From a virus: a stretch of DNA of 42,785 bases. A program made the position numbers and the translations under genes. The notes under the pieces are model-generated. The model was given only the letters and a program-made list of their open reading frames with translations, did not search any database and had not been told where the DNA came from. This document shows positions 2,224-23,403 of the stretch, in pieces. The stretch covers positions 1 to 42,785 of IMG/VR virus record IMGVR_UViG_3300003322_000772; one strand, given 5' to 3'. The first letter of the stretch is position 1, and each line of letters begins with the position of its first letter.

Positions 2224-3705
2224 CTAATACCCAGTGAAAACATCACGTCCCCCACGACCTGGAGATTCCGTTTTCCGGCTGTATAGTTCGTCTTCGGTCA
2301 GAAAGTCCTCTTCGGAGGTGAGAACCATCTGCTCCATGCCCCGGCTCAGGAGAGCAGTGGAGTCGAACTGGTCATCCAGCAGAGCATCGCTATCGCCGGT
2401 GAACCTCAGAAGCTCCGACTCATAGGCCGCATACCAGGAAGCCTCCTTATTGAATTTGACTGCCCCCGCTCGCATCCTTTTTTGCAGGCTCCTGCCATTA
2501 GTCTTTTTGTCCTTGATCGGTAAAAGGGAGAAGAGATTCAGGAAGAGGTTACGCTTCCGCATTTCCTGGTTGAGCACCGGCTCTATGCTCTTCCAGATCA
2601 TGCCATCTTCAACCAGCCACATCTCGGGATTGTAGCGCTCCTCCAGCAGGAACATCTCATCGATGATCTCGAGCAGGTCCCACCTCCCAACACGCTGATC
2701 GAGGACGTGCAGAGTGTTGCGGGCATCCTGCCCCCCGACTGTCATCGAGGTTCGATTGGCCCTTTGCTTTTTGCTAATGGCGAAGTCGACACCGATAAAG
2801 CACTTCTTCGGAAGCTCGTGATCGTCAGGCGTCATCTCGAGAAAGTCTTCCTTCCTCAGAAACGCCTCGCTGTTGTCGAATGGGTCGTTAAGGTACTCTT
2901 GCGAGTAGCCACTAGCATCGAATTGCTCGATGAAGCTTTGGCGAATCGCCCTCAGTCTTTCTTCCGAGAACTGCTCTGGCCACAGAATGTCACTGAAGTC
3001 ATCGAACGAAGCATGCGCCCGATAGAACTTCGTCTTCCAGGTCTTGTCCTTCATGATCCTGGCCAGCAGCGAGTCCTCGTGCAGGATGGTGCCATGGATT
3101 CGGAGCCTGCCACCCTGCCTTAGTGTCGGTTTGAGGGCGCGGTAGAACCAACGACGGAACTTGACGCGGCGGTCAAAGCTTTCGACCTGTTCGTCATCTT
3201 CCAAGTCGTCACAAACAATGAGCCCGGGACGCGCCCCGCGCCACTTCCGGCCGCGCATCTTTTGCCCACTTCCTCGGGCCAGCACTCGACACTGGTGCCC
3301 GTCCTTGAATTCCAGGATGATGTCCGTTTTGGCGCATGTGAGGAAGCCCTTGATCTGGAAATCCTCGATCATCTGCTCGTTCTCTGTCAGTTCTCGAGTG
3401 ATGTCGCTCAGAAGTTCAATGGCCATTTCCTCGTTGCTGCTGACAAGGATGGCATACCGTTCTACACGAAAGAGCAACTCTGCGAGGATGTAGACAGTCG
3501 TGAGGGCAGTGGTTTTGGCGTGCCCACGAGGTGCGGCTACTCCGGCCTGATCAGCCCCACTGCAGTAGAGAGCCCAGCACTCTCGATGCATCTGGGGGGT
3601 AGGCTTCGTGTCATCGTACTGTGCCGAAAGATACGTGGCGGCGAAGCCCTCGATCATCTGGGCCGTCAGCTTTAAGCGCTTGCCAGGGAGTCGTGCGTGA
3701 GCCAT
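2224..3705 (-). CDS. terL: Terminase large subunit (ATPase/nuclease)
   Basis: This is the DNA-packaging motor, which couples ATP hydrolysis to translocation and cuts concatemers. It has 493 residues, a normal length for TerL. The N-terminal ATPase shows a Walker A-like APRGHAKTT (58-66), a Walker B LIVCDDLED (162-170) and a coupling motif IHGT (203-206). The C-terminal RNase H-like nuclease shows FIGVDFAIS (D307), LVEDG (E366) and DDQFD (444-448), which together supply the acidic metal-binding residues. The start at 3705 overlaps the stop of the upstream TerS-like gene (TGATG) and has an AGAGGGG site. The type of DNA end it makes cannot be read from this sequence. Confidence 0.95.
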   Translation of the reverse strand: MAHARLPGKRLKLTAQMIEGFAATYLSAQYDDTKPTPQMHRECWALYCSGADQAGVAAPRGHAKTTALTTVYILAELLFRVERYAILVSSNEEMAIELLSDITRELTENEQMIEDFQIKGFLTCAKTDIILEFKDGHQCRVLARGSGQKMRGRKWRGARPGLIVCDDLEDDEQVESFDRRVKFRRWFYRALKPTLRQGGRLRIHGTILHEDSLLARIMKDKTWKTKFYRAHASFDDFSDILWPEQFSEERLRAIRQSFIEQFDASGYSQEYLNDPFDNSEAFLRKEDFLEMTPDDHELPKKCFIGVDFAISKKQRANRTSMTVGGQDARNTLHVLDQRVGRWDLLEIIDEMFLLEERYNPEMWLVEDGMIWKSIEPVLNQEMRKRNLFLNLFSLLPIKDKKTNGRSLQKRMRAGAVKFNKEASWYAAYESELLRFTGDSDALLDDQFDSTALLSRGMEQMVLTSEEDFLTEDELYSRKTESPGRGGRDVFTGY

Positions 3706-4451
3706 CAGCCCCTCTCATCCAGAGAATTGTCGATGGTGTGGTCAACTGCAGTGCCCTGTGAAGAGGGCAAAGCAGCGGCGCGACGGGCCAAGCGCTCGGC
3801 CAAGTCCTCGAGAGAAGAAGGCTGCGTGGGTGCTGTAGGTGGCTGATTGCCCGTTCCGAGTCCCAAAGCCTTCACGCCGAGGGCTCCGGCCTTGATGATG
3901 AAGTCCTCGGAGGCCTTGCCTTCCTCCAATTTCTTCTGAATGACCATCACGCTTTGGAACAGGAGACCTCGAAGCATGTCATCCATCGTGCCGGCAAAAA
4001 CTGGATTGGTGACTTCACCGCGGCGGAGCTCTAAGGCTTCCTGAAAGTTGCGACTGACCAGGACTCCGGCAAACCATGATTCCTTGTAGCCGAAGTACGC
4101 CGCGAGCTGCTTCGGAGTGTAGCGCGGATTGTCGATCATCAGCTGCACCATAGCTTCGGCCGTGTAGCGCGGGAAGACTTTTGGTTTCAGAAGATCACTG
4201 CGAGGTACAACAGCCATGCCCAGAGCATTCTCGAGGCTCCCCTCGGCCGTGCGTTCGAGACTGCCATCGGCCAAACCTTCGGAAATGAGGCGGCGCTCGG
4301 CCTGCTCCACTTCGGACTGGGTTCTGACGGTGCTGTCATCGATGGGGAGTCCGGCTTCCTCCATCCGGCTACGCCGAATCAGCTGGGCTGCGGCCTCTTC
4401 CAAAGCCTCCGCATCGTTACTGTCGTGTTCCTGGGTCATGGGCAGCCTCAT
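3705..4451 (-). CDS. Terminase small subunit-like protein, long paralogue
   Basis: A 248-residue acidic protein directly upstream of TerL, so a candidate for the DNA-recognition subunit of terminase. The middle has a helix-turn-helix-like stretch around NPRYTPKQLAAYFGYKESW, followed by a helical segment with QSVMVIQKKLEEG. The same pattern occurs in the gene upstream (4448-4810), so the two are tandem paralogues. The N-terminal 100 residues and the Pro/Ser-rich tail are unique to this copy. The ATG at 4451 overlaps the preceding stop as ATGA. A second ATG at 4439 has a GAGG nearer the usual spacing and could be the true start. Which paralogue recognises the packaging site is unknown. Confidence 0.65.
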   Translation of the reverse strand: MRLPMTQEHDSNDAEALEEAAAQLIRRSRMEEAGLPIDDSTVRTQSEVEQAERRLISEGLADGSLERTAEGSLENALGMAVVPRSDLLKPKVFPRYTAEAMVQLMIDNPRYTPKQLAAYFGYKESWFAGVLVSRNFQEALELRRGEVTNPVFAGTMDDMLRGLLFQSVMVIQKKLEEGKASEDFIIKAGALGVKALGLGTGNQPPTAPTQPSSLEDLAERLARRAAALPSSQGTAVDHTIDNSLDERG

Positions 4452-4810
4452 TTCTTCGGAGGCTCGATGACACCGAGGGAACGCTGGACCATCTGCAACG
4501 AAGCGAGGGCCAGGTCAGCAGAAGCCTCGGGACTGTCGAGCTGCCGCTGGATGGTGCTGATGGATTGCAGCGCCACGGTCTCGAGCTTAGCTTTGAGTCG
4601 TTGCCGGATGATGGGGTCCATCACTTCCTGACGGCGCTGAGCGAGGCGGGCTTGGAAAGCGTCGCTCTTGATGATTCGGCTCATCCACGAGGGCTTATAC
4701 CCGAATTGCTGACACAGTTCCGCTTGTGTGACCAGGGGATTGGCGATCATCTCGTTGATAATCATCTCGTGGACGTGGCTGACCTTCTCGATACCTTGAT
4801 TTCCGGGCAT
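4448..4810 (-). CDS. Terminase small subunit-like protein, short paralogue
   Basis: A 120-residue protein, first gene of the leftward packaging cluster. I chose the ATG at 4810 because a perfect AAAGGAG lies 6 bases before it; an in-frame ATG at 4873 has no comparable site. Residues around NPLVTQAELCQQFGYKPSW form a helix-turn-helix-like unit. It is followed by RRQEVMDP and QSISTIQRQL, which match RRGEVTNP and QSVMVIQKKL of the next gene. The length fits a TerS subunit. It could supply the ring that binds the packaging site, or act with its longer paralogue as a mixed complex. The family assignment rests mainly on gene order. Confidence 0.6.
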   Translation of the reverse strand: MPGNQGIEKVSHVHEMIINEMIANPLVTQAELCQQFGYKPSWMSRIIKSDAFQARLAQRRQEVMDPIIRQRLKAKLETVALQSISTIQRQLDSPEASADLALASLQMVQRSLGVIEPPKK

Positions 4811-5009
4811 GGCGGGCTCCTTTGAGGCTGGTGGGTAGAGCTCTACAGTCGCCGGGGCTGTGATGGACAGCAACTAGGCGTCACATCACTGTCCGACAGG
4901 TCCGGCTCTCTTACAGTTAGGGACAGGTGTGAGGAGCAGAAGGGAGAGGGGGAGTGGGCTGCGACCTGTTTTACCCCGGCGCTCCGCCCCGGTGCCCTTA
5001 AGAAGTACA

Positions 5010-5044
5010 GTAACAGTTAACAATTAACTATTAACAGTTAAGAA
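5010..5044. repeat. Heptamer array 1 (TTARNWR-type)
   Basis: Five tandem 7-bp units in phase, the first degenerate (GTAACAG), then units such as TTAACAA, TTAACTA and TTAACAG. First of four arrays in the noncoding region. Possible iterons for an initiator or a DNA-unwinding element. Confidence 0.75.
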
Positions 5045-5296
5045 GAAGGAGCCCGGCAGGAAGGCAGCAGATTACTGGGTGGACAGGAAGGGGTGAGGAC
5101 ATTAAAATAGAGGGTGGAGCGGGCGGGTACATATACTGCTTCTGGCTCGTGGGTCTTGCTCTCGGGCAACTCGGGGGCTAGCTCCGGGCCACTTCTGGTC
5201 AGTCATCTGTTCTCTTCTTCTCCTTCCTTCTTCCCCCCTTCTTAAAGCAGCGCGCGACGGGGCGGCAAGACCCTCGCCCTCCGGGCCCCCTACTTC

Positions 5297-5344
5297 TTAG
5301 CTGTTAATAGTTAGCTGTTAACTGTTAGTATTAACTGTTAAAGG
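5297..5344. repeat. Heptamer array 2
   Basis: Seven tandem units of TTARNWG type, one shortened to 6 bp. Examples are TTAGCTG, TTAATAG and TTAACTG. It begins exactly 64 bp before the palindrome at 5361. Confidence 0.8.
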
Positions 5345-5360
5345 GGCGGCGGGGCGGTGG

Positions 5361-5402
5361 GTTCTGTGCGCGCGTTACTCCGTCGTAATGTGCGCACAGA
5401 AC
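5361..5402. promoter_or_regulatory. 42-bp palindrome, copy 2 (origin-like region)
   Basis: Arms 5361-5378 and 5385-5402 are nearly perfect, both beginning GTTCTGTGCGC, with a TCCGTC centre. This copy is not just upstream of a gene but follows heptamer array 2, which hints at a role in replication or long-range control. Confidence 0.85.
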
Positions 5403-5593
5403 TGGCTAGACTGGACCGACGGGGCTAGGGTAGGGGTGGTAAGCTCAGTCGAGGACCGAAAATTTCCGCAAAAAAATCTGCCGCAGCCTAATGCAGCAAC
5501 TCCGCCACCGCAATTTCCCCCTCCCCCGCCCCCTGCCGGGTCCCCTCTTCTGGGCTGCAGCGCCCCCGCCCTCTCTTCTCAGTAGCCGAACCG

Positions 5594-5620
5594 CTAGCTG
5601 TTAGTTGTTACTGTTATAAG
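5594..5620. repeat. Heptamer array 3 (short, degenerate)
   Basis: Four units, CTAGCTG, TTAGTTG, a 6-bp TTACTG and TTATAAG. It keeps the roughly 290-bp spacing of the series but is the weakest copy and has no palindrome after it. Confidence 0.6.
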
Positions 5621-5885
5621 AGGGGGCCGGGCGGGTGTGGCTGGATGGCACAGTCCTTGCTTTAGCTGTTGCTTCTAAAAGCAGGGGCCTCGCGCGGGCG
5701 TGCGTGCGGGGGCGCGGTTCTTCTTATTCTTAAAGAAGGGGCGGGCGGGCTCGGCCGTGGGGCCTGGGACTGAGGGGGCGGGCTGAGTAAGGAAAATGGG
5801 GCGCCATGCACACTGGGGTCACGCCCCTCTCCCCTACCCCTCTCCGCCTCAGTCTCCCTCCCCCTCGACCGGGCTCCTCCCCCTA

Positions 5886-5927
5886 TTAACAGTTAATAGT
5901 TAATAGTTAGCTGTTAGTAGTTAACTG
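5886..5927. repeat. Heptamer array 4 (six perfect-length units)
   Basis: Six uninterrupted 7-bp units of TTARNWG type fill exactly 42 bp. It begins 64 bp before the palindrome at 5950, reproducing the spacing of array 2 and its palindrome. Confidence 0.85.
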
Positions 5928-5949
5928 TGCCGTTCGGAGGCGCCGGGGG

Positions 5950-5991
5950 GTTGTGTGCGCACATTACTCCATTGTAATGTGCGCATGGAAT
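5950..5991. promoter_or_regulatory. 42-bp palindrome, copy 3 (upstream of early promoter)
   Basis: Arms 5950-5967 and 5974-5991 with a TCCATT centre. It lies 66 bp upstream of the -35 box at 6058, a distance suited to an activator or to DNA looping with copy 2. Function inferred. Confidence 0.85.
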
Positions 5992-6049
5992 CGGGCCGTG
6001 GCCGTGGGGATGGCATGGTATCTTCCAATCAGGGTCGAACCTAGCAATT

Positions 6050-6086
6050 ATGATAGGTTGACGGCTAGGCTGGGATGCCCTATCAT
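6050..6086 (+). promoter_or_regulatory. Main early sigma70 promoter with inverted-repeat operator
   Basis: TTGACG (6058-6063), a 17-bp spacer, then TATCAT (6081-6086): a strong host-type promoter for the rightward early genes. An 8-bp perfect inverted repeat brackets it, ATGATAGG at 6050-6057 and CCTATCAT at 6079-6086. One half abuts the -35 box and the other covers the -10 box, so a dimeric repressor bound there would block RNA polymerase. No repressor gene is recognised. Confidence 0.75.
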
Positions 6087-6127
6087 TACTACATCAACGC
6101 ACAACACACCACGGAAGGAACCGCCCC

Positions 6128-6316
6128 ATGACTCAGATCTACGCCATCGTCCACGACATCACCACGATTCGCGGCACCGTCTACACTCAGACCGTCAATG
6201 TCGCCGCTCACGATGTCTGCGAAGCCCAAGAAAAGTTCATCGACTACTACGAGTCGAAGGGCTTCGTGCACGGTGAGATTCTGAGCATCCGTCCGATCGC
6301 CTCCGTAGCCAACTAA
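6128..6316 (+). CDS. Small early protein, unknown function
   Basis: A 62-residue protein and the first gene after the early promoter, so probably among the first made in infection. It starts at ATG 6128 with GGAAGGA 9 bases upstream. The sequence alternates beta-like (IYAIVHDITTIRGTVYTQTVNVAAHDV) and helical (EAQEKFIDYYESKGF) parts and is acidic overall. There is no membrane segment or cysteine cluster. First-expressed phage genes often encode host-takeover factors, but nothing in the sequence shows the target. A short hairpin (6324-6339) follows the stop codon. Confidence 0.75.
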   Translation: MTQIYAIVHDITTIRGTVYTQTVNVAAHDVCEAQEKFIDYYESKGFVHGEILSIRPIASVAN

Positions 6317-6459: not shown

Positions 6460-6542
6460 CGTCAAACCACTAACCTCTAGTCGCAACCCCTAACCATCCG
6501 GGCATCATGCCCACAACTCGCAGCACCATTGGAGGCTCTACC

Positions 6543-7118
6543 ATGTCGCAACAAAACGAATCCAAGCGCCCAGTCGCCGCCCTTTCCGTCGAGATCGAAG
6601 ACGGCACCCTCGCCATCAACTTCGCCCACGGCCACGCCCTCACGCTCCGCCTCGAAGACCTGAGCCCCGCCATCCGTCATGCCGCGATGATGCACGGTCT
6701 CAAGCAGAAACTCGTGGATGCCGCCGCCATCGCTCGCAACCCTGACACGGGCCGTAGCGCCACGCTCGATGACAAGTATGCCGCCGTCAAGGAAGTCTAT
6801 GACCGCATCACCTCGCCCACTGGCACGTGGAACAAGGTCCGCGAGAACGGCGAGGGCTCCAAGGTCAAAGGCGGCATGCTCGTCCGCGCCATGATGAAGC
6901 TGACCGGCAAACCGCACCAAGCCATCGTCGATTACATCAATGGCCTCACCAAAGAAGAGGTTGCCGCGCTCCGCAAAAACCCGCGCGTCATGGACGCCAT
7001 TGCCGCCCTACAAGCTGAGGAAGTCAAAACGGGCGGCATCAATAGCGACGCCCTGCTCGACGGCATCATGGGGGGCGTCACGTCCGACGAGCCGAAAGCC
7101 GAGACCAAAGCCGAGTAA
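6543..7118 (+). CDS. Early protein with paralogue at 11867 and C-terminal INSDALLD tail
   Basis: 191 residues; the ATG at 6543 is set by a perfect GGAGG 7 bases upstream. The N-terminal third is beta-rich, then a helical core with HGLKQKLVDAAA and VRAMMKLTGK. The same layout recurs in the 197-residue product of 11867-12460 (HGAEQKLGDEIA, VKALMELSGK), so the two are diverged paralogues. The C-terminal part carries INSDALLDGIMGG before a charged KAE tail. That motif reappears at the ends of the 11867 and 15976 products. No enzyme motif is visible. Homologues of this type are, as far as I recall, uncharacterised phage proteins; a DNA- or replisome-binding role is only a guess. Confidence 0.8.
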   Translation: MSQQNESKRPVAALSVEIEDGTLAINFAHGHALTLRLEDLSPAIRHAAMMHGLKQKLVDAAAIARNPDTGRSATLDDKYAAVKEVYDRITSPTGTWNKVRENGEGSKVKGGMLVRAMMKLTGKPHQAIVDYINGLTKEEVAALRKNPRVMDAIAALQAEEVKTGGINSDALLDGIMGGVTSDEPKAETKAE

Positions 7119-11743: not shown

Positions 11744-11764
11744 ATGACACATGGTCGAGCAGGA

Positions 11765-11805
11765 CGGCGGCACGGTGAAACCGACGGGCGCGAGCCCCAC
11801 CGCCG
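11765..11805 (+). ncRNA. Structured 5' leader, possible three-way junction
   Basis: Outer pairing CGGCGG (11765-11770) with CCGCCG (11800-11805) encloses two hairpins. The first is CGGT-GAA-ACCG. The second is GGGC with a GCGA (GNRA) tetraloop and GCCC. It lies between the promoter at 11715 and the ribosome site at about 11853. It could be a cis-acting regulatory RNA or protein-binding leader. I matched it to no known riboswitch. Confidence 0.5.
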
Positions 11806-11866
11806 GGACCATCCCAAATACCAATGCCCCATAACCAGATGGCGCCACGCGCCGGGAGAAACTAAA

Positions 11867-12460
11867 ATGAACGCAATCGCTGAAGCCGAAGTCAAAACCA
11901 AAGCCCCCGCAACCAAGCTGTCCGTGACGATGGACGACGGCAAAGTCGTCGAATTCACCGGCAAGAAAAAGCTGATCAAGACGGCAACCATCGAAGATGA
12001 CGGTTCGGTCGTCGTGCGCCTGGACTTCGTCAACGGCGAGTATCGCGTTTTCCGTCTGCCAGCCGACCTGATGTCGCGTTTCGCTGCACATGGCGCCGAG
12101 CAGAAGCTGGGCGACGAGATCGCAGGCATCGATGATGTCGAGGATTGCGTCGCCGCTATGGACGAACTCCTGGTGCGCCTGGAACAGGGCGAATGGAACA
12201 TCAAGCGCGAATCCAACGGCATGGCCGGTGCCTCGGTCCTCGTGAAGGCCCTGATGGAACTGTCGGGCAAGTCCAAGCCGGAGATCACCACCTTCCTGGC
12301 CGCCAAGACCCACGCCGAAAAGCTGGCGCTGCGCAGCAATGCCAAGCTGAAGCCGATCATCGATCGTCTGGAAGCTGAGAAGGCCGCGCGCAGCAAGAAG
12401 AAGGCGCCGACCATCGACAGCGACGCAATGCTGGACAGCCTGGAAGCCGCCGCAGCGTAA
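11867..12460 (+). CDS. Early protein, paralogue of the 6543 product, with IDSDAMLD tail
   Basis: 197 residues. Start at 11867 from GGGAG 8 bases upstream; the open frame further upstream crosses the structured leader and is Arg/His-rich nonsense. Beta-rich N-terminus, then HGAEQKLGDEIA, GEWNIKRESNG and VKALMELSGKSK, matching HGLKQKLVDAAA, GTWNKVRENG and VRAMMKLTGKPH of 6543-7118. It ends TIDSDAMLDSLEAAAA. The gene has its own promoter and a strong terminator, so it is an independent and probably highly expressed unit. Role unknown; nucleic-acid binding is plausible but not shown. Confidence 0.8.
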   Translation: MNAIAEAEVKTKAPATKLSVTMDDGKVVEFTGKKKLIKTATIEDDGSVVVRLDFVNGEYRVFRLPADLMSRFAAHGAEQKLGDEIAGIDDVEDCVAAMDELLVRLEQGEWNIKRESNGMAGASVLVKALMELSGKSKPEITTFLAAKTHAEKLALRSNAKLKPIIDRLEAEKAARSKKKAPTIDSDAMLDSLEAAAA

Positions 12461-19567: not shown

Positions 19568-19597
19568 CGCCAGAGCCTATCGAGCTTTGGCGTTTTT
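19568..19597 (+). terminator. Intrinsic terminator upstream of the methyltransferase gene
   Basis: CGCCAGAGC pairs with GCTTTGGCG (one G-U), 7-nt loop, then TTTTT. It stops the high-level transcript of the SSB-like gene. Only 28 bp separate it from the next start codon, so the two genes downstream must rely on readthrough or antitermination. Confidence 0.85.
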
Positions 19598-19625
19598 GCT
19601 TCCACATCCTTCTGAGGCTCAAGCA

Positions 19626-21008
19626 ATGCAACTCGTAAAACGCAATGAAATCGTCATCCCATCTGATCGTCAGCGCACCGAATTCGACCCCGAATTTATC
19701 CAGGAACTCTCCCAAGGCATCCTTCAAAAAGGGCTGTTGCACGCCCCCGTCATGCGCGAGGAAGGGGGTCAGAAGGTCCTCGTTGCCGGGGAAACCCGCC
19801 TCAAGGCCATCGACAATCTGTGGATGCTCGGCGGCACGCTACGCTACAACGGCCAAGCTGTACCCGAAGGCATGGTCCCATTCGTGACCCTCGGCCAGCT
19901 TTCCGAACTCGAAGCCGAGGAAGCCGAGCTCGAAGAAAACGTGCGCCGCCGCAATCTCACCTGGAAGGAAGAGAGCCAGGCCCTCGCAAAACTCCACCGC
20001 ATCCGCTCGCAACGCGCCCAGGCCGAAGGTCGCGTTCACACCGTGGCAGACACGGCCGTTGAAGTGAAAGGACGTAGCGACGGGTCATATCAGGAAGCTG
20101 TGCGCAAGAGCCTCATCGTTTCGAAATTCGTTGACAATCCCGAAGTTGCAAAGGCCAAGAGCGTCGAGGAAGCCTTCAAGATCGTCAAAAAGCAAGAGGC
20201 TCAAGCCAAGCACATAGAACTGGCCAAAACCGTCGGCGCCACCTTCACGGCTTCCATTCACGAAGTCTACAACACTGACTGTTTGACGTGGATGGCGCAG
20301 TGCCCAGAAGGTACATTTGATGTCATTCTCACCGATCCCCCGTACGGTATGGGTGCCGATTCCTTCGGTGATGGTGGCGGCGGCCGTCTGGCAAACAACG
20401 AACACCACTACAAGGACGACTACGCAAGCTGGAAGTCCCTGATGTCACAGTGGGCCCCTCTCTCCTACAAGGTCGCCAAGCACCAGGCTCATGCCTACGT
20501 CTTCTGCGACATCGACAACTTCCACGAACTGAAGAAGATGATGCAGGAAGCTGGCTGGTACGTATTCCGCACACCATTCGTGTGTACGAAGCCTGGCAGC
20601 GGCCGTGTCCCCCTGCCGTCGGAAGGTCCTCGTCGACAGTATGAAATTTTGCTGTACGCCATCAAGAATCACAAAAACACCACGGCCATCTATCCGGATG
20701 TTCTGACTAGCTATGCCGACGACAACACCACGCACGGTGCTCAGAAGCCTGTCGCCCTGTATGAACAGTTGCTGCTTCGGAGCGTGAAACCAGGCGACGT
20801 GGTGCTCGACAGCTTCGCCGGAAGCGGCACCATCTTCCCATCCGCCCACAAATATCAATGCAAGGCCGTGGGCCTGGAAATGAACCCGGAATACTACGCG
20901 ATGTGCCTCAACCGCATGAAGGAACTAAGCGCCCCGAGCGGCGCCTCGTCCACGACTTCCGTGGACGCGCTGAGCAACGAACTGCAAAGCCTCATGGGGG
21001 GCCGCTAA
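19626..21008 (+). CDS. ParB-like domain fused to a beta-class DNA methyltransferase
   Basis: 460 residues. ATG 19626 has GAGG upstream; a longer frame would begin inside the terminator. Residues 1-200 resemble a ParB/Srx-type N-terminal domain: VLVAGETRLKAI (51-62) fits the GE-x-R motif, followed by helices with EENVRRRNLTWKEE. Residues 210-435 are an amino-methyltransferase with motif IV DPPY (237-240) before the SAM-binding motif I DSFAGSGT (395-402), the beta-class order, modifying adenine N6 or cytosine N4. The tail has SVDALSNELQSLMGG, vaguely like the DSDALLD tails of other early proteins. It probably methylates phage DNA; the target site is unknown. Confidence 0.88.
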   Translation: MQLVKRNEIVIPSDRQRTEFDPEFIQELSQGILQKGLLHAPVMREEGGQKVLVAGETRLKAIDNLWMLGGTLRYNGQAVPEGMVPFVTLGQLSELEAEEAELEENVRRRNLTWKEESQALAKLHRIRSQRAQAEGRVHTVADTAVEVKGRSDGSYQEAVRKSLIVSKFVDNPEVAKAKSVEEAFKIVKKQEAQAKHIELAKTVGATFTASIHEVYNTDCLTWMAQCPEGTFDVILTDPPYGMGADSFGDGGGGRLANNEHHYKDDYASWKSLMSQWAPLSYKVAKHQAHAYVFCDIDNFHELKKMMQEAGWYVFRTPFVCTKPGSGRVPLPSEGPRRQYEILLYAIKNHKNTTAIYPDVLTSYADDNTTHGAQKPVALYEQLLLRSVKPGDVVLDSFAGSGTIFPSAHKYQCKAVGLEMNPEYYAMCLNRMKELSAPSGASSTTSVDALSNELQSLMGGR

Positions 21009-21009
21009 T

Positions 21010-23403
21010 ATGCCCATCCACCCAACAGGCCCCAGCAATGCCCGTATCATGCTCGTTGGAGAATTCCCCCACGAACAAGACCTTTTGAACAGCACCCCCT
21101 TCGTCGGTGGCCCTGGCTACGAGCTTCGCAAGATGCTTCAGGAAGTCGGAGTCTATGCTGCGGACTGCTACATCACAATGGTGATGAAGGACCGCATCCC
21201 GCAATCCCGTGTCGAAGCTGTTGTCGCAACCAAGAAAAAGGACATCACAAATGCTCATGTGCTCCACGCAGGTAAATATGTACTCCCAGCTGTGGTGGCT
21301 GGAGTGGAACAACTCCGTGCAGAGGTGGAACGAGTTCGCCCTCATGTGGTGGTCACCTTTGGCAATCTGGCACTGTGGGCTCTTACTGGGCAATGGGGGG
21401 CGATGAACTGGCGATCCTCCATCATGGAGAGCGCGCTCGTGCCAGGTGTCAAAGTGGTGCCGACCTTCAGCCCGGCCATGGTGATGGTACAGTGGAAGCT
21501 GCGGGGGCTGATGGTTCACGACCTCGGAAGGGCCGTCGCACAGTCTGCGTTCCCGGAAATCCGTCGCCGGGAGTACAAGTTCATCGTACGCCCGACCTTC
21601 GAACAGGCTAAAAGCCAGCTGGAACGGATGATTGAGGTTGCCCAGATCTTCCAACAGGAAAATGATGGCAAACTCATGAAGATGGGCGGCGACATCGAGA
21701 CTCGTGCGGGGCACATCTCCTGTATCGCATTCGCATGGTCCCGCACGGAAGCCATCTGCATTCCTCTGATGACCGTGGACAATCCAGAGGGCTATTGGAC
21801 CCTGGAGGAGGAAGCCGAGCTTGTGCATCTGATCTACCGATTGTGCCAACACATCACAGTCGTGGGTCAGAACTGGAACTACGACGCGCAGTATATCTTC
21901 CGTCACTGGCACTTCATCTGCCCGAGCGTGAAGGACACGATGGTCCAGCAGCATACGTGCTTCTCCAATTTGGAAAAGAACCTTGCATTCCTGTCCTCGA
22001 TGTACCTTGACGATCACCTGTACTGGAAGGATGATCGTACGAACTGGAAGAAGGGCGAGGACGGCGAAGGGGAGATTAACTACTGGACGTACAACTGTAC
22101 GGATGCGGTACGTACCCTGGCTATTGAAGAAGTGCTGGGCAAAGTGGTGACGAAGCTCGGCCTCGACGCTGTTGATGACTTTCAGCAGCGTCTCACCGGT
22201 CGTGTGCTGCGCACGATGAACAAGGGCGTGAGAGTGGACTTGCAGGAACGAGCCCGTCTTGCAATGATTCTCCAAGGTGAAGCTGCAAATCGGCAACAAT
22301 GGATGGCAGACGTTATCGGTCGCGAAATCAACATCCGCTCCCCTGCTCAGATGGCAGAGTTCTTCTACAAGGAAATGGGAATGCGGCCCATCATCGACCG
22401 TAAGACGAAGAGCATCACCACCAACGATGAAGCGCTGCACAAGATCGCAGAACGTGAACCGATTCTGCTACCCATCACTCGTAAGATTTCGGAGTTACGG
22501 TCTCTGGGAGTGTTTCACAGCACCTTCGTCAGTGCCCCTCTCGATGTTGATGGTCGGATGCGCTGCTCGTTCAACGTGTGTGGCACGGAAACCTACCGCT
22601 TTGCGTCCAGCAAAAATGCATTCGGGACCGGTGCTAACCTTCAGAACATCCCGAAGGGAGGAGAAACGGAAGATTCGGGCTTGGAGCTGCCAAACATTCG
22701 TGAACTCTACATTCCTGATCCGGGCAAGGTCATCTTTGACATTGACCTCGACAGTGCCGACCTCCGAATCGTTACGGCCGAAAGCAATTGCCTTTGGATG
22801 AAAGAGCAGTTCGCCAACAAGAGGAAACCATATGTGGAGGTGATGCGGGAGTACTACAGCAACAGAACCATGACCAAAGACTCTCACCCACGAGAATATG
22901 CGATGTTCAAATCTCTGTGCCACGGAACCAACTACCTCGGCACAGCAGCAGGCATTGCCCCCCGCATTGGTTTGTTGGTGCACGAAACGGAACGTATCCA
23001 GAAATGGTACTTCGGAATGTGCCCTGAAATTCGGGCGTGGCAGGAGGAAATCAAAAAGCAGGTGTCCGGAAGGCGCTGGATTCAAAACGTCTTTGGCTAC
23101 AAGTATCACTTCTTCGATCGCATCGAGGGTACGATCTTCAATCAGGCTATTGCGTGGATTCCGCAGTCGACCGTCGGTTGTCTGATTAACCGGGCGTGGG
23201 AAAGGATCGAAGACAACCTGCCGGAAGTAGACATCCTTCTGCAGGTGCATGATTCATTGGTCGGTCAATTCGATCTCTGTCATGGGGAGTGGATGCTGAA
23301 GCAGATCATCGAGCAGTCCCAGGTTCCTCTCCCGTACGATGAACCTCTCATTATTCCAGTTGGAATTGCTAGTAGTTCCAAGTCCTGGGGAGATTGTCGA
23401 TAG
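21010..23403 (+). CDS. UDG-like domain fused to family A DNA polymerase
   Basis: 797 residues, the replicative polymerase. Residues 10-180 resemble family 4 uracil-DNA glycosylase: MLVGEFPHEQD (14-24), PFVGG and VVVTFGNLAL (113-122). The catalytic blocks look degenerate (GEFPH for GEAPG, TFSPA for HPSP). A 3'-5' exonuclease follows with DIE (228-230), NWNYD (288-292) and YNCTD (361-365). The polymerase has TETYR with NLQNIP (526-547), motif A DLDSADLR (579-586), motif B R628 to K634 with NYLG, and motif C VHD (746-748). It starts one base after the methyltransferase stop. Similar fusions exist in SPO1-type phages. Confidence 0.93.
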   Translation: MPIHPTGPSNARIMLVGEFPHEQDLLNSTPFVGGPGYELRKMLQEVGVYAADCYITMVMKDRIPQSRVEAVVATKKKDITNAHVLHAGKYVLPAVVAGVEQLRAEVERVRPHVVVTFGNLALWALTGQWGAMNWRSSIMESALVPGVKVVPTFSPAMVMVQWKLRGLMVHDLGRAVAQSAFPEIRRREYKFIVRPTFEQAKSQLERMIEVAQIFQQENDGKLMKMGGDIETRAGHISCIAFAWSRTEAICIPLMTVDNPEGYWTLEEEAELVHLIYRLCQHITVVGQNWNYDAQYIFRHWHFICPSVKDTMVQQHTCFSNLEKNLAFLSSMYLDDHLYWKDDRTNWKKGEDGEGEINYWTYNCTDAVRTLAIEEVLGKVVTKLGLDAVDDFQQRLTGRVLRTMNKGVRVDLQERARLAMILQGEAANRQQWMADVIGREINIRSPAQMAEFFYKEMGMRPIIDRKTKSITTNDEALHKIAEREPILLPITRKISELRSLGVFHSTFVSAPLDVDGRMRCSFNVCGTETYRFASSKNAFGTGANLQNIPKGGETEDSGLELPNIRELYIPDPGKVIFDIDLDSADLRIVTAESNCLWMKEQFANKRKPYVEVMREYYSNRTMTKDSHPREYAMFKSLCHGTNYLGTAAGIAPRIGLLVHETERIQKWYFGMCPEIRAWQEEIKKQVSGRRWIQNVFGYKYHFFDRIEGTIFNQAIAWIPQSTVGCLINRAWERIEDNLPEVDILLQVHDSLVGQFDLCHGEWMLKQIIEQSQVPLPYDEPLIIPVGIASSSKSWGDCR

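Follow-up and report, generated by a model that had tools for sequence, protein, structure and literature searches.

What is the role of four clusters of TTARNWG-type heptamers that lie together in one gene-free gap of a phage genome? The window, that is, the whole stretch of 42,785 nucleotides analysed here, is a 42.8-kb metagenomic contig of a tailed phage. A sequence-only reading had seen in these arrays, two of which start 64 bp ahead of a palindrome, an iteron-type replication origin or a nucleoprotein assembly site. Judged from sequence comparison, the gap is probably the replication-origin and control region of this phage, and the arrays are not supported as a conserved working part of that origin.

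The gene-free gap and its position in relatives

The gap (4874–6127, ~1.3 kb) contains no gene with a family match and separates the terS-terL operon from the early genes, which are transcribed rightward from 6128. Its surroundings are as follows:

2224–3705, minus strand: terL, large terminase (PHROG 38, E 5e-68), the synteny anchor
3705–4451, minus strand: terS-like paralog, an ORF in tandem with the next one and upstream of terL
4448–4813, minus strand: terS-like gene (ORF; small terminase, HTH type), left border of the gap
6058–6086, plus strand: sigma-70-like early promoter, TTGACG-17-TATCAT, 10/12 consensus
6128–6316, plus strand: first early gene (ORF, 62 aa), right border of the gap
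19587–21008: ParB_N-methyltransferase fusion
21010–23403: DNA polymerase A with an N-terminal uracil-DNA-glycosylase domain

For the terS-like gene at the border, no family model matched in Pfam or PHROGs. Sequence comparison showed that the two copies match each other and are paired beside terL in all relatives, and we read both as small terminases from their sequence and position. The product of 6128–6316 also found no family match in Pfam or PHROGs. Early products encoded further downstream include a Dda-like helicase, a PD-(D/E)XK nuclease, a Sak4-like annealing protein, the ParB_N-methyltransferase and the uracil-glycosylase/PolA fusion. Two distantly related proteins (6507–7118 and 11744–12460, 31% identity), with no function assigned, are both kept in relatives. 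A promoter consensus scan gave two matches in the region, at 5080 and 6058 on the plus strand, against 0.5 expected, and an Rfam scan gave no score near the gathering threshold. Inverted ATGATAGG / CCTATCAT (6040–6088) stand on either side of the promoter at 6058 and may be an operator.

Querying viral contigs with the PolA protein returned 53 relatives, and a terL alignment query returned 80 loci; a single terL protein query returned none. With terL as a guide, the same arrangement was located in 17 of 30 records of these relatives, the gap being syntenic, with terS on one side and the gene at 6507 on the other. What stays constant in the relatives is the position of the gap, a palindrome family and a core of ~70 bp.

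Heptamer arrays in GC-rich DNA

The four clusters of TTARNWG-type heptamers are real, and all of them lie inside the noncoding gap:

5010–5043, minus strand: A1, inverted, TTAACTG TTAATAG TTAATTG TTAACTG
5297–5342, plus strand: A2, TTAGCTG TTAATAG TTAGCTG TTAACTG TTAGTA TTAACTG (four perfect units followed by a 6-mer and more)
5597–5617 (to 5625 with motif M, below), plus strand: A3, about three imperfect units, the weakest array
5886–5927, plus strand: A4, six units, TTAACAG TTAATAG TTAATAG TTAGCTG TTAGTAG TTAACTG

Three of the starts first proposed (5010, 5297 and 5886) proved exact, and the third array, placed at 5594, begins at about 5597. From array to array the spacings are 287, 300 and 289 bp. 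Period-7 self-match is 0.78 (A1), 0.62 (A2), 0.57 (A3) and 0.74 (A4), an order that 10,000 composition shuffles reached with P = 0 (A1), 1e-4 (A2), 0.029 (A3) and 0 (A4); A4, A1 and A2 are the top three period-7 windows genome-wide. A three-unit pattern allowing up to two mismatches has 13 matches in the window genome, compared with one for the reversed control. As originally noted, the arrays are AT-rich islands in GC-rich DNA (24–33% GC, against 60–78% in the 40-bp flanks). The 16 units fall into seven types that vary at positions 4–6 only, TTA and G being constant, a constancy that is partly circular because units were picked by pattern.

Two further properties concern the DNA around the arrays. 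A 50-nt imperfect inverted repeat (84%, 5011–5327) has A1 and A2 at its two ends and encloses 217 bp; the interval 5044–5290 has no homolog among the relatives compared, and the segment from A1 to A2 could be an inserted or mobile element. Each array is also flanked by one pyrimidine-rich and one purine-rich arm, and its fold is a GC-closed hairpin (z −1.2 to −3.1). We set these GC-clamped hairpins aside: they are there, but modest, and pyrimidine/purine strand bias alone could produce them.

Do the arrays belong to a known class of heptamer repeats? TAACTGA repeats of Beggiatoaceae, Cyanobacteria and Bacteroidetes are intergenic and of unknown function (PMC4679880). The window arrays share with them an intergenic position, direct repetition in 7-bp units, an almost identical letter string (TAACTG) and stops in several frames. 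They differ in that TAACTGA repeats consist of identical units, mostly just 5′ of start codons, in many sets per genome, whereas the window has four degenerate clusters in one gap; PMC4679880 discusses no phage. Like long simple sequence repeats and cyanobacterial STRR heptanucleotides, the window arrays have period 7 and are AT-rich; unlike STRR, whose units are mostly identical, as they are among the public matches listed, they have seven unit types among 16. Tandem copies of one identical heptamer, by which TAACTGA and STRR repeats are recognised, were thus not seen.

The stops raise the idea that the arrays are translation barriers, in which TTAR supplies stops on both strands and the 7-bp step covers all frames, blocking stray translation in GC-rich DNA. 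A1, A2 and A4 do carry stop codons in all six frames, and stop counts exceed those of composition shuffles (P 0.006 for A1, <2e-4 for A2 and for A4, 0.07 for A3). However, the stops follow from the TTAR motif itself, CACCATG-type heptamers of other relatives are stop-free, and most relatives have no arrays. We rate the stops as a by-product and consider such a barrier hardly credible.

Palindromes, motif M and the conserved core

Two members of a genome-wide palindrome family, and a conserved element ~100 bp to the right of the first of them, lie among the arrays:

5361–5402: palindrome 2, 42 bp, 18-nt arms 89% complementary
5458–5527, plus strand: conserved core, ~70 bp, GAAAATTTCCGCAAAAAAATCTG ... 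TTTCCCCCTCCCCC, at ~30 distinct family loci
5950–5991: palindrome 3, 42 bp, upstream of the early promoter, ~70 bp before it

The eleven 42-bp palindromes start at 2173, 5361, 5950, 8572, 12569, 15593, 18774, 24417, 31076, 35247 and 42116, and nine of them have no adjoining array, the copies at 5361 and 5950 being the exceptions. Nearly all complete relatives have several intergenic copies (2–11 at a strict cut-off); none was found in G022 or G027. Across relatives the family keeps the core ATTAC-N6-GTAAT and its ends while the arms are phage-specific, a pattern that fits an operator co-evolving with its protein. We also considered the palindromes as RNA hairpins, but the orientation of G-U/A-C mismatches, compared by eye with local gene direction, was patternless, and a DNA operator is therefore preferred. 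Since the same palindrome recurs before other genes, it is most likely the operator of a dimeric phage regulator.

Is the 64-bp spacing a functional ruler? A2 and A4 start 64 bp ahead of palindromes 2 and 3, and arrays and palindromes alike are 589 bp apart, exactly as the sequence-only reading had it. At the 589 offset the arrays match at 28/34 positions and the palindrome blocks at 36/45, with ~30 bp between them unmatched, so the two distances may reflect one duplicated module and not two independent measurements. Moreover, the start of a degenerate 7-bp array is arbitrary, and at an offset of 596 the arrays still match at 25/34; a duplicated module thus explains the 64 bp about as well as a ruler does.

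The relatives offered a second view of this distance through motif M (CAGTAATNNTAACGGGTAWAAG), which in seven relatives starts 35–68 bp ahead of a palindrome. Distances from M to the nearest palindrome in eight relatives, a list that includes the loose M match of G014, are 59, 64, 47, 35, 39, 68, 64 and 49 bp. Nearness to the palindrome is kept and the exact distance is variable, and we rejected 64 bp as a conserved spacing. With up to two mismatches, M occurs four times in 893 kb, and one of these occurrences (CTGTTAGTTGTTACTGTTATAAG at 5598, two mismatches) lies inside A3. The end of A2 also resembles M, with three mismatches (5322–5344), a loose link.

M could also point to transcription. 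In such a reading the arrays would serve the divergently transcribed terS and early operons as promoter or operator elements and have no part in replication. M looks like an extended −10 (for example TGTTATAAG), M and palindrome lie between terS and the early genes, and palindrome 3 precedes the early promoter. Against this, the M-type TATAAG has no properly spaced −35, and the consensus scan picked out only 5080 and 6058 on the plus strand. We consider a purely transcriptional role very doubtful.

The core, RAAAWTTTNNAAAAAATCTG...GGTGCATTACA...TTTCCCCCTCCCCC, has an A-tract/T-tract block and a C-rich strand; the A/T-tract block (5458–5480) is itself conserved in relatives. Core-bearing loci reach down to ~59% terL identity, and MW202796 has a version of the core in a divergent gap at 44% terL identity. 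We take the core for a candidate unwinding or priming element. In G001 and G002, C-tracts of up to 20 C lie beside the core, and the G-rich strand opposite them could form an R-loop or a G-quadruplex.

The heptamer arrays are distributed quite differently. A three-unit search (up to two mismatches) found them in 4 of 44 records, namely the window, G008, G011 and G036; conservation of the arrays with their 64-bp spacing in related phages, suggested as a check, is not supported. The best period-7 window of G008, 1283 bp upstream of terL (1306 bp for A1 in the window), falls in the homologous gap. In G011 arrays stand beside palindromes, but in another intergenic region, and G014 has a shorter array, so heptamer arrays are patchy among relatives. 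By blastn, A3 matches G014 (32 nt, 91%, E 4e-4) and G008 (27 nt, 93%, E 0.005), the only relatives with an A3-like segment, both at ~63–64% terL identity. In the window, G008 and G016 the strongest repeated 7-mer cluster of the genome falls in this gap. The heptamer differs in G016 (CACCATG) and in the gap of G023 (CAAACAC), and most relatives examined have no repeat cluster there, which argues that iterons are not required family-wide. By these comparisons the arrays appear mostly particular to the window phage, and the conserved parts are the neighbouring elements. As a separate observation, sites resembling the bacterial centromere parS (exact or one mismatch to TGTTTCACGTGAAACA) occur in G001 and G002 (loci L081 and L080) and also in G009, G022 and G027; the window phage has the ParB_N-methyltransferase fusion listed above.

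Given this distribution, could the arrays have arisen by replication slippage, neutral or nearly so and with no function of their own, in a fast-evolving gap that might still be an origin? They are missing from most relatives while core and palindromes stay, and unrelated period-7 repeats occupy the same gap of G016 and G023. According to a passage of PMC4679880 that cites Mrazek 2007, in most genomes no class of 5–11 nt repeats is commoner than heptanucleotides, for which slippage of the DNA polymerase has been suggested as the source. A scan of genome collections for TTARNWG x4 found more than 100 perfect stretches in viral and more than 100 in bacterial collections among the matches listed, which were mostly unrelated simple repeats. 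Slippage accounts less readily for a single motif in four separate clusters, one of them inverted, with seven unit types among 16 units, where the public arrays among the matches listed mostly have one or two identical units. The A3-like DNA kept in two other phages and the constant TTA and G positions (with the circularity noted above) also speak against it. On balance we think slippage alone unlikely, although it is a serious competitor.

Evidence for a probable origin, and a tentative mechanism

The strongest sign of the gap being an origin in this phage family comes from G008, whose gap has 11 DnaA-box-like sites in 1.6 kb while all other parts of its genome together have 6 (P ~7e-16). These sites, within one mismatch of TTATCCACA, cluster to the right of the core. 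In this respect G008 resembles DnaA-box origins of the bacterial oriC type; the window gap differs, with no DnaA box. GC-skew, which had been suggested as a check, was run and decided neither way: its extremes fall at the point of divergent transcription. GC- and AT-skew extremes do so in many genomes, and we rejected skew as an origin marker because transcription diverges at the same place.

In phage lambda, ori combines four O-protein iterons, an AT-rich stretch and an inverted repeat. The window gap likewise combines tandem sites, an AT-rich block and a dyad, and holds several direct repeats of one motif in noncoding DNA, as iteron origins do. Unlike those of iteron origins, however, its units are 7 bp and not ~18–22 bp, and its clusters are ~290 bp apart with one inverted. 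Strict arrays are missing from most close relatives, in which an iteron origin would be expected to keep its repeats. No initiator gene was recognised among the 30 proteins compared with PHROGs or the 20 compared with Pfam, many early genes matching nothing. Of the iteron-type origin first proposed, what survives is the gap as a good candidate, by virtue of its synteny in 17 relatives, the core at ~30 loci and the DnaA boxes of G008; the arrays and their 64 bp as a fixed machine do not.

A gap beside terS might instead serve packaging. Some phages have pac or cos at or beside terS, and here the adjoining TerS pair would read a packaging start in the gap, with arrays and palindromes as its sites. 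In many relatives the contig stops no more than 4.5 kb upstream of terL, and for a good share of these the distance is 0.7–1.8 kb. These ends nevertheless fall at scattered sequences with no single site, C-tracts can break assemblies, and a single pac site would not recur across the genome as the palindromes do. The circular contigs of several relatives, which overlap by 79–127 bp, are uninformative on packaging. We regard a packaging start as improbable, though like slippage it is still in contention.

We tentatively favour, at somewhat less than even confidence, an origin and early-control region at 4874–6127 in which the arrays are M-like DNA amplified in 7-bp steps and acting as extra weak sites. 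How might it work? (i) The A-tract/T-tract block of the core, with its C-rich strand, would be the site of melting or priming; (ii) the palindrome, bound by a dimeric phage regulator, would provide regulation; (iii) lineage-specific amplification of M-like DNA, 7 bp at a time, would have produced the four clusters, one of them inverted; and (iv) the heptamer arrays would give the M-reading protein additional weak sites to recognise and would also be easily melted DNA. The core and palindrome half of this mechanism draws on conservation; the half concerning M and the heptamers, like origin function, protein binding and amplification from M, is what we infer.

A bolder variant keeps the core and lets each lineage swap its initiator repeats: host DnaA boxes in G008, TTARNWG in the window, CACCATG in G016 and a weaker GATAGC-type in G001, with a spiralling filament reading the 7-bp arrays. 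We hold this to be quite unlikely; if it were true, one origin would depend on a different firing protein from phage to phage.

We know of no mapped origin in the phage family that combines a UDG-PolA polymerase with a Dda-like helicase. The gap provides a testable origin candidate for this uncultured family, with a 70-bp core open to cloning and assay. Should the arrays be products of slippage, they are ordinary; if the repeats adjoining the core do turn over, from DnaA boxes to heptamers, these phages would offer a view of an origin changing its initiator.
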